A stretch of DNA of 41,214 nt from Halanaerobiaceae bacterium (GTDB lineage Bacteria; Bacillota; Halanaerobiia; Halanaerobiales; Halarsenatibacteraceae), in the NCBI GenBank assembly GCA_007134885.1, contig SLJX01000106.1, positions 1 through 41,214 of the forward strand, written 5' to 3'. The notes under the pieces are model-generated. The model was given only the letters and a program-made list of their open reading frames with translations, was not told the DNA's origin and ran no database searches. Positions 1 through 32,184 of the stretch are shown here, one piece after another. Every line of letters starts with the position of its first letter. Position 1 is the first letter of the stretch. The translations under genes and the position numbers were made by a program.

Positions 1-381
1 ACCTCGGTGGCCATGGCTGAGATCGGTAAGATGGATGGCTTGTAGGTAGGTACCGGCGATCCCTTCGCCACAGTTTCTACCCACGGATTGTCGACTGCCA
101 TGGGCGGAATGCGCACTGCCGGAGACCTGGTAATGCGAATGCAGATGGCAAAAGCAATGCGTCTGGGAGAAGCTAAAGAGTATGTTGCTGATAAACTTGG
201 AATTGCAGTGGAAGATCTATCTGATAATATTAAAATGGACAAAATTAGACGCAAACTGGGACTGGGCCGGATCAGACCTTCAGTTCAGGAAGCAGTTAAT
301 CTTCAGGCCAAGGCCAATATAGCTGAACTTCTGGATATCAAAATTAATTCAGTGGAAAAATATGGCCTGTCCCGGAACTAA
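1..381 (+). CDS. mtbB: Dimethylamine:corrinoid methyltransferase, C-terminal part, with in-frame UAG (pyrrolysine) at 43-45; 5' end outside window
   Basis: Frame 1 reads TSVAMAEIGKMDGL-(TAG)-VGTGDPFATVSTHGLSTAMGGMRTAGDLVMRMQMAKAMRLGEAKEYVADKLG...INSVEKYGLSRN, then TAA at 379-381. MtbB-like sequence lies on both sides of the TAG. The 111 codons after TAG match the recalled spacing in MtbB (Pyl356 of about 467 aa). Confidence 0.88.
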
Positions 382-618: not shown

Positions 619-2169
619 TTAGTTATTCATATGTTTGGAAGCATCCACCCTTTCACCTCTGGCATGGAGGAAATAAAGGGCGGCAGTTAAAATAGCAATA
701 CTGATTATTAATGGCAGAATTGCTGCATCCATTACTGCAGCCAGGATATAGCCGATGGCTGAAACAATGGCTGCCAGAATAGCGTAGGGCAGCTGGGTAT
801 TAACATGATCTATGTGATTGCAGGCCGCACCTGTTGAAGACAGCACCGTAGTATCAGAGATTGGTGAGGAGTGGTCGCCAAAGATTGAGCCTCCCAGCAC
901 TGCGGCAATACACATAGCAGGATTGATACCCAGAGTTACTGCCAGCGGCACCCCGATGGGCATCATAATGGCAAAGGTTCCCCAGGAGGTACCGGTGGCA
1001 AAGGCCATGAAGGCTGAAACCAGGAAAATAGCCACCGGGATGCTCCAGAGAGGCAGAGTTTCACTGACGATGCCAGAAACATATTCACCAGTTCCCAGCA
1101 TTCCGGCTACATCGCCGATTGACCAGGCCAGCAGCAGAATAGTTAAAGCTGGAACCATTGCTTTAATGCCCTGAATGAAGGCTTCCATGGCTTCGGAGAT
1201 TGAGAGAACCTTTCGGCTGGTATACCAGATAATTCCAACCAGGTTGCCAAGCAGGGTAGCATAAAGCAGGGCTGTGGCTACATCAGAGTCGCCAATGGCA
1301 TCTCTGAAGCTTATACCGTTGTCAAAATACCCGCCGGTGTAGAGCATGGCAATAATAGTAACAGCAATCAGGGTGATTATTGGCAGCAGCAGATCGGATA
1401 CCCTGCCTCTTTCTGAGATGGATAGGTCGGTTATATCCTGCCCGGGTATCTCTTCTTTGGACTCCTCGGCAAAGAGTTCTCCCTTTTCCAGAGCCCTCTT
1501 TTCAGCGCTGGCCATGGGTCCAAATTCCAGATTGGTGACTGCCACTACAAAAACCATGATAATAGCCAGCAAAGCATAGAAATTATAAGGAATGGTTTCC
1601 AGGAACATTTCAAAGGGGGCTATTTCTACTTCCAGCCTTTCAAATTCGGCTACATAGAGGGACATGGCATAGGCAATCCAGGAGGAAAGGGGAACAATAA
1701 TTGCTACCGGTGCTGCTGTGGAGTCAACAATATAGGCCAGCTTCTCCCGCGAAACTTTAAACTTATCGGTTATATTCCGCATCACAGATCCAACAGTCAG
1801 AGTATTAAAATAATCATCGAAGAAAATAATTAAACCCAGCACCCAGGTTGAAACCTGAGCCTGCTTGCGGGATTTAATCTTGCTGGCTGCCCAGTCTCCA
1901 AAGGCCTTAGAGCCGCCTGAACTGTACATGATCCCTACCATGCTTCCCAAAAGACAGGTGAAGATCAGCACTCTGGCATTCCAGTCATCGCTGAGATTGG
2001 CTGTTAGCACCTCTCCCAGTTCAATCAGAGTACCTCCCAGGCTCCCGGTGTAAAATGCCAGTCCGGCTACTATCCCGAGAAATAACGACATGACAACCCG
2101 TTTTGAGATGATCGCCAGGACAATAGCCAGCAGAGGTGGTATTATTGATATAATACCAAAATGATCCAT
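619..2169 (-). CDS. NhaC-family Na+/H+ (or organic acid) antiporter
   Basis: 516 aa multi-TM protein with NhaC-type motifs (IIFFDDYFNTLTVGSVMRNITDKFKVSREKLAYIVDSTAAPVAIIVPLSSW; GTSWGTFAIMMPIGVPLA; GDHSSPISDTTVLSSTGA). Confidence 0.9.
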   Translation of the reverse strand: MDHFGIISIIPPLLAIVLAIISKRVVMSLFLGIVAGLAFYTGSLGGTLIELGEVLTANLSDDWNARVLIFTCLLGSMVGIMYSSGGSKAFGDWAASKIKSRKQAQVSTWVLGLIIFFDDYFNTLTVGSVMRNITDKFKVSREKLAYIVDSTAAPVAIIVPLSSWIAYAMSLYVAEFERLEVEIAPFEMFLETIPYNFYALLAIIMVFVVAVTNLEFGPMASAEKRALEKGELFAEESKEEIPGQDITDLSISERGRVSDLLLPIITLIAVTIIAMLYTGGYFDNGISFRDAIGDSDVATALLYATLLGNLVGIIWYTSRKVLSISEAMEAFIQGIKAMVPALTILLLAWSIGDVAGMLGTGEYVSGIVSETLPLWSIPVAIFLVSAFMAFATGTSWGTFAIMMPIGVPLAVTLGINPAMCIAAVLGGSIFGDHSSPISDTTVLSSTGAACNHIDHVNTQLPYAILAAIVSAIGYILAAVMDAAILPLIISIAILTAALYFLHARGERVDASKHMNN

Positions 2170-5251: not shown

Positions 5252-7060
5252 ATGAATAATAAAAACGCCAGCCCTAAAAAGGGACTGAGAGAAAGATTAA
5301 AATATTTAAAACCTTTTTTGAATACAATCTTGGAACCGGTAAAAATCATCTTTAAGGATCCCCTGGGTATAGCTGGAGCTATTATTTTTTCAATTATTGT
5401 GCTAATAGCTATATTTGCTCCCCTGCTGGCAACCCATAATCCGGCTGAGATGAATGAAAGAATCGAGGGCAGTTTACTTGCCTTTTCTCCCGGCGGTCAA
5501 TGGCAGGATTATGAGATTATTGGCGATAAACCCATAAATGATCTGGTAATTAGAGGCCAGCAGATGATAGCAGCAGCAGAAAGTGGTTCTATCATGATGC
5601 TGCAAGAAGATGGCAGCTGGCAGGAGGTAAAAATTGATGCTGGAATAGATTTCTTTGCTGCTACAGTTGCAGAAGATATGATTCTGGCAGCTGGGGAGCA
5701 GGGGAGAATATACAGTTATCAGAATGGCAGCTGGCAGGAAAATCATCTGGAGCAGGAAATTGATATCTATGGCCTGACTGTTTCTCCCGGAGGTACTATT
5801 TATGCAGTGGGAGAAGAGGGTTCAGTTTTTAGCTGGCAGGAAGAAAGCTGGCAGCAGCTGAACACAGGATCCAGCCGTACACTTAAAGATATAAATTTTG
5901 TTGCTGCAGATGATGCTATAGTAATTGGAGAACGTGGAACCATCATTCATTATCGGCAGGGAGAATTTCTCGCTCCTCAGTTTAGAAGCTTCACTGATGA
6001 AACCTTCAGAGATCTTAATGGCCTGCATTATTTCAGTGAAGAGCTGGCCTTTGCTGTAGGTGAAAGAGGAACAATAATGGGTTATGACGGTACCGAGTGG
6101 TTTGCCATGAGAAGTGACTCTTCCCGGGAACTTAGAGGGGTTACTATAATCAGTTCTGAGGAAGCCTATGCTGTTGGTTATCGAGGCACAATCCAGCAGT
6201 ATGATGGAGAAAGCTGGCAGACCCATGAGAGAATAACCCGCAGGGGTTATCGGGGAATAACAACTGCTGGAGAAACCGGCTATATTTATGGAGTAGATCC
6301 CTATGTAAATGAACTGGCTCCTCCCTCCAGGGAGCACTTCTTTGGGACAACCCACCTGGGGAGGGATATCTGGAGTCAGGTTATCTACGGTTCCCGCACT
6401 GCTCTGATGGTCGGCATTATTGCAGCCCTGATGGTTAACCTGCTCGGTTTTACCGTGGGACTTATCTCCGGTTATTATCGAGGAGGAGTCGATAGTTTTC
6501 TAATGCGGGTGGTGGATATTATGTACGGGATGCCGCTGGAACCTTTTGCCATTGTGCTGGTGCTGATCTTTGGTCCGGGACTCTGGATAATAATTCTGGC
6601 TATTGGTCTCTTAACCTGGAGAACCAATGCCCGGGTAATTCGTTCTCAGGTGCTTTCTCTGGTGGAAAGACCCTTTATTAAAGCTGCCCGGATAGCAGGA
6701 GCCAGTAATATTAGAATCATGCTGGTTCATATCGCTCCCAATGTTCTGCCCCTGGCCTTTCTGCAGCTGGCAGTGGCCATGGGTTATGCGATTACTGCTG
6801 AGGCAACCTTAAGCTTTTTAGGTCTAGGGCCTCCAAGGGTATACAGCTGGGGGACCATTCTTCATGCAGCCCGCCTTTCCGGGGCCTGGAGGACAGCCTG
6901 GTGGTGGATTATTCCCCCGGGAATTTTTATTTCGGCCACCGTGGTTTCGGTTTTCCTGGTTTCCCGTGCTCTGGAAGTTCTGACCAATCCCCGCCTGAGA
7001 GGAGGCAATGAGAGTGCTCCTGAACCTAAAGAATCTCAAGACGTATTACCGCATGAATAG
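5252..7060 (+). CDS. ABC transporter permease, DppC/OppC family, with a large beta-propeller-like insertion in the TM1-TM2 extracytoplasmic loop
   Basis: TM1 ([34 protein letters not shown]), about 280 aa of GxxGxIxxYxxxSWQ repeats, then normal DppC ([29 protein letters not shown]...[27 protein letters not shown]). Confidence 0.92.
5465..6310 (+). repeat. Protein-level repeat region: about seven blades of a YCF48/WD40-like propeller inserted in the permease
   Basis: Repeated units: [120 protein letters not shown], plus a half-blade at each end ([15 protein letters not shown] / GYIYGVDP). Confidence 0.8.
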
Positions 7061-11874: not shown

Positions 11875-12513
11875 ATGGTAGATTTTGAAAAGTTAAGCAA
11901 CAGTGTAATTAAAGGTAATAGAGAAGAGGTAGTGGAATTAACTCAGGAGGCAGTTGATGAAGGGGTTAAGCCGAATGAGATTATCAATCAGGGTTTAATC
12001 AACGGCATGAATGTGGTGGGTAAAAGGTTTAAAGCCGGCGACATGTTTGTACCTGAGGTACTTATGGCAGCCAAAGCTATGAAGGGCGGCATGGAGATAG
12101 TTCAGCCCCTGCTGGTTGAAGGAGAAAGGGAAGAGGCCGGCAGGGTTTTACTGGGTACGGTAGCCGGAGACTTGCATGATATCGGCAAGAACCTGGTAGG
12201 TATGATGATGGAGAGCGGCGGACTGGAGGTTACCGACCTCGGCACCGATGTCGAGGCCGATGAATTTGTGGAGAACATCAGGGAGGTCAAGCCCCATGTG
12301 CTGGGCATGAGTGCTCTGCTGACCACCACCATGCTGGAGATGAAGGATGTTATAGAGGTTCTGGAGGAAGAGGGCTTGAGAGATGATGTTAAGGTAATCG
12401 TTGGAGGAGCCCCGGTTACCAAGGAGTTTGCTGATGAGATTGGAGCAGACGGCTGGGCGCCGGATGCTGCTTCAGCCAAGGATCTTGCCTTTGAACTTCT
12501 GGAAGATAAATAG
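11875..12513 (+). CDS. Corrinoid (B12-binding) methyl carrier protein, copy 1
   Basis: 212 aa; MtbC/MtgC-like helical cap plus DLHDIGKNLVGMMMESGG (DxHxxG) Co-binding motif. Confidence 0.95.
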   Translation: MVDFEKLSNSVIKGNREEVVELTQEAVDEGVKPNEIINQGLINGMNVVGKRFKAGDMFVPEVLMAAKAMKGGMEIVQPLLVEGEREEAGRVLLGTVAGDLHDIGKNLVGMMMESGGLEVTDLGTDVEADEFVENIREVKPHVLGMSALLTTTMLEMKDVIEVLEEEGLRDDVKVIVGGAPVTKEFADEIGADGWAPDAASAKDLAFELLEDK

Positions 12514-12534: not shown

Positions 12535-14031
12535 ATGAGCAAATATGTAAGGGCTCGTAATAATGTTAATGCTTCGGTCTATTTCCAGTCTCTAACCGAT
12601 GATGAATGCCGGGAGATTTATCTGGCAGCTCTCGAAGTTTTGGAGAGAACCGGTGTCAAACTTTTTTCTGAAGAAGCCCGCAGCATTTTAAAGGAAGCAG
12701 GTGGTTATGAAGAAGAGGACGGTCTTATTAAGATTCCCATTGGTTTATGCCAGTGGGCCGTGGATGCTGCTCCTTCCAAAATTGTTCTCTATGACCAGGA
12801 GGGAAATCCTGCCCTGGACCTTCACGACAATAATACTTATTATGGTCCGGGACCGACAAATACCTATCACCGGGACCCCTATACCGGGGAACGCCGCCGG
12901 CCGGTAGTTCAGGATAACCGAAATGCGGCTAAAGTATGTGACGCCCTGGAATATATTGATTATGTTATGGACCTGGGAACTCCCACCGATGTTACCGATA
13001 ATATTGCTGATATTCACGCCTTTAAGGCCATGATAGAAAATACTAATATGCCCATTGTTCACTGGGGCTTTGATATTGAGCAGTATGAAGATATGATTGA
13101 CATGGCAGCAGTTATTGCCGGTTCACTGGAAGAACTGCAGAAGAAACCCTTCTTTTTCCTCTATTCCGAACCAACTTCTCCCCTGCTGCATTCCCGGGAG
13201 GCCATTGAGAAGGTAATTCTGGCTGCCCGGAAAAAGATTCCTATTGTCTATACACCCTGTGTAATTTCTGGAGCTACCACACCTGCAACTCTGGCCGGCA
13301 CCCTGGTGCAGGGGATTGCCGAGAGTATTGCCGGAATTACCCTGGCTCAGTTGATCAGAAGAGGTCAACCCATAATAATGGGTGGGGTTTATGGCATCAT
13401 GGATATGAATACCACCATCTACAGTTATGGCAGTCCGGAATTTAACGCCCTGCAGGCGGGAGTTGCTCAGGTTTCAACCCACATGGGTATCCCGGTTTTT
13501 GGGACAGCTGGCTGTACTGACTCCCATACCATCGATGAACAGGCTGCCGCTGAGGCCGCCATGAGCATCCTGACAGCCGCTCAATCAGGAGCCAACCTGG
13601 TTCATGACTGCGGTTATATCAGTTCCGGTCAGTGCGGTTCCCTGGAGCAACTGGTAATGGATGACGAGATTATCGGTATGGTAAAAAGGATTATGCGAGG
13701 AATTGAAGTAACAGATGAAACCCTGGCAGTAAATGTGGTTAAAGAGGTGGGTCCCGGAGGTCACTTCCTAGGTGAAGATCATACCATGGAGCATTTCAAG
13801 GAACAGACCTGGTTCCCCACTCTGATGAACAGAATGCGCCATGATGGCTGGAAAACCAAGGCTGATGGTTCTAGAATGGCCGATAGAATAAAAGAAAAAC
13901 TCCATGATATTTTAGAAAATCACGAAACTCCTAAACTGCCAGAAGATAAGCAGCAGGCAATAGATGAGATTATGGAACAGGCAGAATCCCGGGAAGCTGA
14001 AAGAGACAAGAAAAAGAAGGAGGACAAATAA
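12535..14031 (+). CDS. MttB-family methyltransferase, non-pyrrolysine (glycine-betaine-type or related)
   Basis: 498 aa, no in-frame TAG; MttB-family motifs (YGPGPTNTYHRDPYTGERR; PFFFLYSEPTSPLLHS; VFGTAGCTDSHTIDEQAAAEAAMSIL). Confidence 0.92.
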   Translation: MSKYVRARNNVNASVYFQSLTDDECREIYLAALEVLERTGVKLFSEEARSILKEAGGYEEEDGLIKIPIGLCQWAVDAAPSKIVLYDQEGNPALDLHDNNTYYGPGPTNTYHRDPYTGERRRPVVQDNRNAAKVCDALEYIDYVMDLGTPTDVTDNIADIHAFKAMIENTNMPIVHWGFDIEQYEDMIDMAAVIAGSLEELQKKPFFFLYSEPTSPLLHSREAIEKVILAARKKIPIVYTPCVISGATTPATLAGTLVQGIAESIAGITLAQLIRRGQPIIMGGVYGIMDMNTTIYSYGSPEFNALQAGVAQVSTHMGIPVFGTAGCTDSHTIDEQAAAEAAMSILTAAQSGANLVHDCGYISSGQCGSLEQLVMDDEIIGMVKRIMRGIEVTDETLAVNVVKEVGPGGHFLGEDHTMEHFKEQTWFPTLMNRMRHDGWKTKADGSRMADRIKEKLHDILENHETPKLPEDKQQAIDEIMEQAESREAERDKKKKEDK

Positions 14032-14032
14032 T

Positions 14033-14671
14033 ATGGTAGATTTTGAAAAGTTAAGCAACAGTGTAATTAAAGGTAATAGAGAAGAGGTAGTGGAATTAAC
14101 TCAGGAGGCAGTTGATGAGGGAGTTAAGCCGAATGAGATTATCAATCAGGGTTTAATCAACGGCATGAATGTGGTGGGTAAAAGGTTTAAAGCCGGAGAT
14201 ATGTTTGTACCTGAGGTGCTTATGGCAGCCAAGGCCATGAAAGGCGGCATGGAAATAGTTCAGCCCCTGCTGGTTGAAGGAGAAAGGGAAGAAGCCGGCA
14301 GAGTGGTACTGGGCACGGTAGCCGGAGATCTGCATGATATTGGCAAGAACCTGGTAGGCATGATGATGGAAAGCGGCGGATTGGAGGTTACCGACCTCGG
14401 TACCGACGTAGAAGCAGATGAATTTGTGGAGAGCATCAGGGAGTTTAAGCCCCATGTGCTGGGCATGAGCGCTCTACTGACCACCACCATGCTGGAGATG
14501 AAGGATGTTATAGAGGTTCTGGAGGAAGAGGGCTTGAGAGATGATGTTAAGGTAATAGTAGGAGGAGCCCCGGTTACCAAGGAGTTTGCCGATGAGATTG
14601 GAGCAGACGGCTGGGCGCCGGATGCTGCTTCAGCCAAGGACCTTGTCTTTGAACTTCTGGAAGATAAATAG
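14033..14671 (+). CDS. Corrinoid (B12-binding) methyl carrier protein, copy 2
   Basis: 212 aa with 4 substitutions relative to copy 1. ATG at 14033; the ORF-track extension to 13964 overlaps the upstream gene and is not used. Confidence 0.95.
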   Translation: MVDFEKLSNSVIKGNREEVVELTQEAVDEGVKPNEIINQGLINGMNVVGKRFKAGDMFVPEVLMAAKAMKGGMEIVQPLLVEGEREEAGRVVLGTVAGDLHDIGKNLVGMMMESGGLEVTDLGTDVEADEFVESIREFKPHVLGMSALLTTTMLEMKDVIEVLEEEGLRDDVKVIVGGAPVTKEFADEIGADGWAPDAASAKDLVFELLEDK

Positions 14672-14688: not shown

Positions 14689-16137
14689 ATGAAAAGCAGT
14701 TATAAAGTAAATGCAGGAACTGTTCTAGAGGTTCTTTCTGAAGATCAGATAAAAAAGATCCTGGAAGCCTCCATGGAAATTCTGGAGAGCACCGGCGTTG
14801 TCTATCATGATGAAGAAGCTATTGAAATCATGAAAAATGCCGGCTGTTTTGTCGAGGATAACAGGGTCAGGATACCGGCCCGGCTGGTGGATCAGGCCAT
14901 AACAACAGCTCCCAGCAAGGTAACTCTCAGCAACAGCCGGACCCGGGAGAGGGTTATGGAATTGACCGGCAATAATGCTTATTTTGGTACCGGTTCTGAT
15001 ACACCGAAATTTATCGATCCCTATACCGGGGATAGAGTAACAGCCAGCAAAGAAACTGTGGCCATGGCGACCAAGACCATAGATGCTCTGGATAATCTGG
15101 ATTTCGTGATGTCACTGGGTATTGTTCAGGATGTACCACAGCCCGTCTATGACCGGCACCAGTTCCAGGCCATGGTTCTTAATACCTCCAAACCGATAGT
15201 TATTACTGCTAATGATGTGGCCGGCTACGCTGATATAATTGAAATGTGTGAAGCAGTTGTGGGCGGAGAAGAAGAATTGAGAAGTAATCCCTTCATGACG
15301 CTCTATGCCGAACCGATTTCTCCTCTGCAGCATGCTGAAGATGCAGCCCAGAAGCTGGTACTGGCCGGCAAGAAATCACTGCCGGTGGTCTATACACCCT
15401 GTATTATGGCCGGTGGAACCGTACCGGCTACCTTAGCCGGTGCAATGGCTACCGGCCTGGCAGAAAGCCTGAGCGGTCTGGTTTTAAATCAGCAGACCAA
15501 TGCCGGCAATCCCTTTATCATGGGTGGTGTTTTTACCATCATGGACATGAACACCACCATTTTCTCCTATGGGGCTCCTGAGTTCGATCTGATGCAGGCT
15601 GGCCTGGCTGATGTTTCTAATTATCTGGATATTCCGATGTTTGGCACCTGTGGCTGCTCCGATTCCAAAATTGTTGATGAGCAGGCTGCCATTGAGGATG
15701 CCCTTTCGATCTTAATTACCGCCCAGTCGGGAGCCAATCTCAATCATGATGTCGGTTATATTGAACACGGCAATGCTGCTTCCCTGGAAAATCTGGTAAT
15801 TTCTGATGAGCTGATCGGTTACGCCCGGCGGATAGTGCGGGGCATTGAGGTCAATGATGATACTCTGGCAACCCATGTAATTGACAGAGTAGGTCCCGGC
15901 GGACATTTCCTGGGCGATGAACACACTATGAAGTACTTCAAAACCGAAACCTGGTATCCGGAACTCTTCCAGCGAGTTTTCTATGACAACTGGGAGATGG
16001 ATGGCGAAAAGACCCTGTTTGACAGGGCCAATGAAAAGGTGAAAGATATCCTGGAAAACTATGAACCTGAACCGCTGCCCGAGGATGTTGTTAAAAGGCT
16101 GGATGAAATTGTGGAACGGGCTGAAAGCAAAATGTAA
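14689..16137 (+). CDS. MttB-family methyltransferase, non-pyrrolysine, second paralog
   Basis: 482 aa; YFGTGSDTPKFIDPYTGDR, PFMTLYAEPISPLQHAEDA, MFGTCGCSDSKIVDEQAAIEDALSIL. Confidence 0.92.
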   Translation: MKSSYKVNAGTVLEVLSEDQIKKILEASMEILESTGVVYHDEEAIEIMKNAGCFVEDNRVRIPARLVDQAITTAPSKVTLSNSRTRERVMELTGNNAYFGTGSDTPKFIDPYTGDRVTASKETVAMATKTIDALDNLDFVMSLGIVQDVPQPVYDRHQFQAMVLNTSKPIVITANDVAGYADIIEMCEAVVGGEEELRSNPFMTLYAEPISPLQHAEDAAQKLVLAGKKSLPVVYTPCIMAGGTVPATLAGAMATGLAESLSGLVLNQQTNAGNPFIMGGVFTIMDMNTTIFSYGAPEFDLMQAGLADVSNYLDIPMFGTCGCSDSKIVDEQAAIEDALSILITAQSGANLNHDVGYIEHGNAASLENLVISDELIGYARRIVRGIEVNDDTLATHVIDRVGPGGHFLGDEHTMKYFKTETWYPELFQRVFYDNWEMDGEKTLFDRANEKVKDILENYEPEPLPEDVVKRLDEIVERAESKM

Positions 16138-30762: not shown

Positions 30763-32184
30763 ATGATAACCAGAAGAAAAGTCGGAGATGATGTTTTTTC
30801 GGCTGAAGATTTGGAAAAGATTCATGAAGCTACAATTAAGGTGCTTCAGGAAACCGGCGTGGAAGTTGTTTCGGATAGGGCCCGGGAGTATTTTAAAAAG
30901 GCAGGTGTCCGGGTGGAAAAGGGTCATGTATGTTTAACTGAAGAAGAAATTCATAAGTATACGAAAATGGCCCCGGAAGAATTTGAGCTCAAAGCTCGCA
31001 ATTCGGAAAACAATGTTCTGGTTGGGGGAAAGAACACCGTTCTTTCTCCTGGCTATGGCTCTCCCTTTGTAATGGAGTACAAAGACAGGGGCCGGCGTAA
31101 TTCCAGATTTAAGGACTATCAGAATTTCACCAAACTGGCCCACTGGAGTGATAATATTGATGTTGTGGGGGGAGTGCTGGTGGAGCCTACCGATCTGGAG
31201 GATAGGGTTCGGCACGGGAAAATGCTGCATACTGCTGTCACCCTCAGTGACAAGTGCCTGATGGGCAGTGCTATGGGGGCAAGAAAAGCCCGGGAATGTC
31301 TGGATATGGCAGCCATTGTGTTTGAAAGTAAAGAATTTGTCAGAAACAATGCTGTACTGATCTCACTGATCAATACCAACAGCCCTCTGCAGATAGATGA
31401 GCGGATGAGCGATGCCCTGATGGTTTATTCCCAAAATCAACAGGCCATGGTGATAGCTTCATTGTGTATGACCGGAACCACTTCACCTACTACCCTGCCG
31501 GCATCTCTGGTTCAACAGAATGCAGAAATTTTAACAGGCATCTGTCTGACTCAGATTATTAATCCCGGCACCCCGGTGGTCTATGGTTCAGCCTCCAGTG
31601 TGGTGGACCTGAAAACCGGAGACCTGGCCCTGGGCAGCCCCGAAACGGCAAAAATGTTTAACGGCACAGCTCAGATTGCCCGAAGATATGGTGTGCCATC
31701 CCGGGGTGGTGGAGCCCTGACTGATTCGCTTTTTCCTGACTCCCAGGCCGGTTATGAATCTATGCTCAATGTACTTTCTGCCATCAACAGCGGCTTTAAT
31801 TTCATGCTCCATTCAGCCGGGCTGCTGGAAAATTATATGTCAATGTCCTATGAGAAGTTTATCATTGATGAAGAAATTCTGGGAGTTGTCAATAATGTGG
31901 TTTCCGGCCTAAAAGCTGATGCTGAAACTTTAGCTGTCGAGGTAATAAATGAAGCTGGCAGCGGGGGCAACTTCATATCTTATGAGCATACCTACCGGCA
32001 TATGAAGGATATGAGGCAGCCATTACTCAGCGTCAGGGAGAGATATCTCAGCAACCGGCAGCAGCTGAATGCCGCTGATCGGGCTCATAAAAAGTGTCAG
32101 GAAGTTCTGGAAAACTTCTCCCCTCCGAAATTGCCTGCAGGAATTAAACAGGAACTAGAGAATTATATTGATGGCTTGGGGTAA
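30763..32184 (+). CDS. MttB-family methyltransferase, non-pyrrolysine, third and most divergent paralog
   Basis: 473 aa; KVLQETGVEVVSDRAREYFKKAGV...TNSPLQIDERM...SYGSP-equivalent LALGSPETAKMFNG; no in-frame TAG. Confidence 0.88.
   Translation: MITRRKVGDDVFSAEDLEKIHEATIKVLQETGVEVVSDRAREYFKKAGVRVEKGHVCLTEEEIHKYTKMAPEEFELKARNSENNVLVGGKNTVLSPGYGSPFVMEYKDRGRRNSRFKDYQNFTKLAHWSDNIDVVGGVLVEPTDLEDRVRHGKMLHTAVTLSDKCLMGSAMGARKARECLDMAAIVFESKEFVRNNAVLISLINTNSPLQIDERMSDALMVYSQNQQAMVIASLCMTGTTSPTTLPASLVQQNAEILTGICLTQIINPGTPVVYGSASSVVDLKTGDLALGSPETAKMFNGTAQIARRYGVPSRGGGALTDSLFPDSQAGYESMLNVLSAINSGFNFMLHSAGLLENYMSMSYEKFIIDEEILGVVNNVVSGLKADAETLAVEVINEAGSGGNFISYEHTYRHMKDMRQPLLSVRERYLSNRQQLNAADRAHKKCQEVLENFSPPKLPAGIKQELENYIDGLG

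Follow-up and report, generated by a model that had tools for sequence, protein, structure and literature searches.

Introduction

The methyltransferase MtbB demethylates dimethylamine with an active-site pyrrolysine (Pyl) and thereby methylates a corrinoid protein, and MttB acts likewise on trimethylamine. In bacteria, Pyl-containing methylamine methyltransferases have been published for Acetohalobium arabaticum and for gut bacteria, and a dimethylamine methyltransferase with an in-frame Pyl has been published for marine Deltaproteobacteria (PMC7593587, PMC8318568, PMC3941956). The pyrrolysine system of A. arabaticum is attributed to Prat et al. (2012) in the passages of PMC3941956 and PMC8318568 that cite it, and the usual bacterial gene orders are pylTScBCDSn or pylSnScBCD (PMC3941956, 2014). 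For MttB, a mechanism has been proposed in which the substrate attacks the imine carbon of Pyl334 (PMC9842639). Among the open papers listed for pyrrolysine and Halanaerobi-, no title or abstract dealt with Pyl genes of the lineage studied here, and the paper on soda-lake metagenome-assembled genomes (MAGs) mentions pyrrolysine only in the title of a reference.

Here, we analysed a stretch of 41,214 nucleotides (the window), which is the entire contig C10 of a draft genome (G000; 2,312,528 bases, 207 contigs, 95.8% complete) of a Halanaerobiaceae bacterium.

An in-frame TAG at the pyrrolysine position of mtbB

The first base of the window is a contig end, and the gene that runs into it has its 5' part outside the window. 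On the plus strand, frame 1 of positions 1..381 comprises 126 codons and a TAA, that is 14 codons, a TAG (43..45), 111 sense codons (46..378) and the TAA (379-381), and its product reads TSVAMAEIGKMDGL-O-VGTGDPF...GLSRN*, with the motif DGL-O-VG at the TAG. In a profile search, this read-through product matched positions 341-460 of Dimeth_Pyl (PF09505) with an E-value of 7e-43 and 147 bits, against a curated cut-off of 25, and the part downstream of the TAG matched on its own with an E-value of 2.1e-36, which excludes a chance match. The first-pass annotation had proposed that frame 1 joins two MtbB-like halves across the TAG, and the profile match bears this out. It had also noted that the track reported only an open reading frame from position 88 and that standard annotation would break the gene; indeed, the mechanical list holds for this region only the TTG-start frame 88-381. 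A sequence search with the window fragment found no solved MtbB structure, its sole match being weak and unrelated.

We then aligned 33 MtbB sequences, taken from G000, from related genomes and from a phylum-wide draw. The TAG fell in the same column in 33/33, within the motif DGLO[VIL]G, in agreement with the earlier proposal that 111 codons after the TAG mark the Pyl position of MtbB. Among the 399 genomes of the phylum draw, mtbB occurred in 17, G000 included, and the 16 others carry the same TAG; a count of internal TAGs gave exactly one for every full-length match (31) in this draw. Judged by its sequence, positions 1-381 are thus confirmed as the 3' end of mtbB, with a TAG at the Pyl position of the whole family. 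The gene had been put forward as a new bacterial instance of Pyl-MtbB, and a further instance it is, although the claim becomes a modest one when 16 more genomes of the draw share the same TAG-containing mtbB.

The mttB-mtbB operon is divided between two contigs

The 5' part of mtbB was located at the end of contig C134 of the same draft genome (57670-58394, with a match at 57670-58392), where it covers positions 3-248 of PF09505 with 277 bits and runs in frame to the last contig bases (58394). Directly upstream of this half lies mttB (16016-17479 of L018, a stretch of C134), which contains one in-frame TAG (QYYKLPSYLAGG-O-ADSK) and reaches 661.6 bits against an NCBIfam trimeth_pyl cut-off of 525. 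The same order, mttB with a TAG followed by mtbB, was found in the genomes G028 and G029.

In G029, which belongs to the same genus, a single contig (C140) carries mttB(TAG), mtbB(TAG), an antiporter gene and an ABC transporter. On this contig, at a DNA identity of 90-94%, C134 ends at 5935 and C10 begins at 6207, so that 271 bp are unassembled between the two. Together with the 2 leftover bases of C134, these make 91 codons, and the frame of mtbB is therefore kept across the gap. Extending the gene upstream, as the first-pass annotation had advised, thus showed the assembled portion of the 5' part to be intact and in frame, with no frameshift, and a broken upstream frame was rejected by the comparison with G029. 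The gene has one in-frame UAG, which occupies the conserved column (33/33), and homology is unbroken on both of its sides, with the frame in the gap taken from G029. Nor is there support for a second, near-identical mtbB copy having caused the contig to break here, the three copies of the same-genus genome G027 being only ~68-70% alike in DNA. The NhaC-like antiporter gene next to mtbB (619-2169, minus strand) is intact in the window; G029 (L047) lacks ~1.1 kb of it (894-2009 of the window), which leaves an open reading frame of 160 aa.

Codons downstream of the TAG are under purifying selection

When the post-TAG codons of G000 were compared pairwise with those of G028, G029 and G027, the frame was never shifted and changes were not obviously more numerous on the G000 side. 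For mtbB, the post-TAG dN/dS was 0.098 (G000-G029) and 0.153 (G000-G027, contig C163), and for mttB it was 0.075-0.108; the post-TAG values lie in the same low range as the pre-TAG values (0.046-0.105). Since an unread 3' half would not show such purifying selection, these data argue for read-through of the TAG and give indirect support to an MtbB read-through product that would be made and used.

The same data bear on whether the TAG is a true stop, in which case 88-381 would be a separate small gene, or the region a pseudogene or sequencing error. Standard ORF calling, which yields only 88-381, is what such a reading would predict. Against it stand the unbroken homology across the TAG, the selection on the downstream frame and the conservation of the TAG in independently assembled genomes, and we regard it as scarcely credible.

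Low usage of TAG as a stop, which might betray Pyl decoding, was looked for in G000 and not seen: TAG ends ~17% of the long open reading frames sampled (14/84). There is thus no strong avoidance of TAG in this genome, and TAG is not reserved for Pyl. This frequency also weighs on the idea that the UAG is read without tRNA-Pyl, either by a conventional amber suppressor tRNA or by near-cognate read-through. The assembly contains no tRNA-Pyl (see below) and yet selection indicates that the read-through product is used, as would be expected under that idea. A general amber suppressor would nevertheless be costly when so many long frames end in TAG. Moreover, the TAG is invariant in 33/33 MtbB, and tRNA-Pyl(CUA) and PylS occur in related genomes of this genus and family. 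We therefore hold decoding by such a route to be very improbable.

pyl genes in relatives and in the draft genome

A complete pyl operon was found in G027, the soda-lake MAG Halanaerobiaceae bacterium T1Sed10_84, which is of the same genus. Its genes lie on contig C157 (PWEJ01000049.1) in the order pylT-Sn-Sc-B-C-D and adjoin an mttB with a TAG; PylSn, PylSc, PylB, PylC and PylD all exceed the NCBIfam equivalog cut-offs, and the anticodon of the tRNA-Pyl is CUA. Each of the three mtbB copies of this genome has a TAG. A second pyl set occurs near contig ends, with pylT/pylSn on C90 (tRNA at 787-858 of L045) and a pylB-like gene on C17 (487-1563 of L046), which suggests two pyl cassettes in one bacterium. 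Moreover, pylT and PylS are present in G024 and G026, two genomes of the same family.

The first-pass annotation had expected pylT, pylS and pylBCD elsewhere in the genome and had held that a genome without pyl genes would speak against its reading. In this draft the expectation was not borne out: pylT, pylS, pylB, pylD and the operon DNA were all sought in vain in the 207 contigs of G000 (95.8% complete). A search with PylS gave nothing, and neither PylB nor PylD occurred above the cut-off. A covariance model gave no pylT match in G000, while true pylT scored ~104 bits in three relatives, which also supplied the sequences for building the model. A 4.5-kb pyl operon query had no DNA match in G000, and this search is the one that covered pylC. 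ARAGORN found no tRNA-Pyl in the window or in the stretches L018, L019 and L024-L026 of G000. In G024, G026 and G027, the searches for PylS, PylD, pylT and the operon were successful. PylS was also not found in G028 and G029 (76-77% complete), both of which have the same TAG operon. A plasmid home for pylS was also considered, but 72,556 PLSDB records contained no match.

These negative searches can be read as a true loss of the pyl genes, which would have left mttB and mtbB recently orphaned and their products truncated and inactive. Such a loss would fit both the failure of every pyl search at a stated completeness of 95.8% and the lack of PylS in G028 and G029. It is at odds with the purifying selection on the post-TAG codons, which in G000 have neither frameshifts nor an obvious excess of changes, and with the position of the assembly holes. 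One of these, of 271 bp, lies in mtbB itself. In addition, contig C159 of G000, which carries a Mrp antiporter operon (L080 1-475), has its start within a gene, at the end that would face pyl, and its counterpart in G027 lies ~8 kb from the pyl operon; this break near the expected pyl site is suggestive, synteny there not being guaranteed. The pyl genes of G026 and G027 are likewise on or near contig ends and split between contigs. Given the post-TAG selection and the complete pyl operon in a genome of the same genus, a gap in assembly or binning is much likelier than real absence, and the pyl cassette is most likely present in the organism. Our strong preference for a missing over a lost cassette is a judgement and not a computed value. 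A recent loss confined to the G000 branch would be compatible with the dN/dS and assembly data, but true loss is on the whole improbable. It is also unlikely that the subclade of G000, G028 and G029 keeps its selected, UAG-interrupted mttB and mtbB without chromosomal pyl genes, through an unrecognised decoding route or an unbinned mobile replicon.

Proposed methylamine pathway

We consider it very probable that the locus is a methylamine operon of the ordinary, Pyl-dependent kind and that its pyl cassette is missing from the draft. The mtbB whose 3' end opens the window would then be functional and belong to an mttB(TAG)-mtbB(TAG) operon of an uncultured Halanaerobiales-type bacterium. The UAG would be decoded as pyrrolysine by a tRNA-Pyl(CUA) that receives its amino acid from a split PylSn/PylSc synthetase, and the Pyl side chain of MtbB would activate dimethylamine for transfer of its methyl group to a corrinoid protein. 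For the G000 organism, we infer Pyl as the inserted residue, the pyl genes and the catalytic role, the last from the literature on the family.

The window further encodes three proteins of the MttB superfamily without an internal TAG (12535-14031, 14689-16137 and 30763-32184), which are probably MtgB-type methyltransferases for quaternary amines or other substrates, and two MtgC/MtbC-like corrinoid proteins (11875-12513 and 13964-14671) beside two of these three genes. It also encodes a pterin-binding methyltransferase, MTHFR, Hdr-like proteins, FTHFS and a RACo-type corrinoid activator. Because corrinoid proteins, the pterin-binding methyltransferase, MTHFR, FTHFS and RACo are encoded in the same window, the methyl groups are probably passed on to tetrahydrofolate and into the Wood-Ljungdahl pathway rather than to coenzyme M. 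MtmB was not found in G000, so that the known route of demethylation does not evidently run all the way to ammonia.

Discussion

The mtbB gene studied here is very probably another case of a recoded UAG where standard annotation would split a real enzyme, and it provides a clear example of probable Pyl-dependent use of di- and trimethylamine in uncultured bacteria related to a soda-lake Halanaerobiaceae MAG. The missing pyl genes of a draft genome are unreliable evidence of absence, and conserved TAG-interrupted methyltransferases may serve as a flag for a missing pyl cassette.

The gene resembles described MtbB (PF09505 Dimeth_Pyl, TIGR02368) in its family, in the TAG ~111 codons before the end, in the DGLO[VIL]G motif and in its operon with mttB. 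It differs from the usual MtbB in being split over two contigs, with 271 bp missing, in an assembly without pyl genes. A further counterpart is found in T1Sed10_84, whose orthologous mtbB on C163 shares the same TAG and 86% identity over shared residues; unlike the G000 draft, that genome has pylT, Sn, Sc, B, C and D, three mtbB and a second, fragmented pyl set. As in A. arabaticum, a halophilic member of the Halanaerobiales (NCBI taxonomy), we find predicted Pyl methylamine methyltransferases and, in the relatives of G000, a split PylS. The order pylT-Sn-Sc-B-C-D of these relatives, however, is unlike the usual bacterial orders given in PMC3941956.
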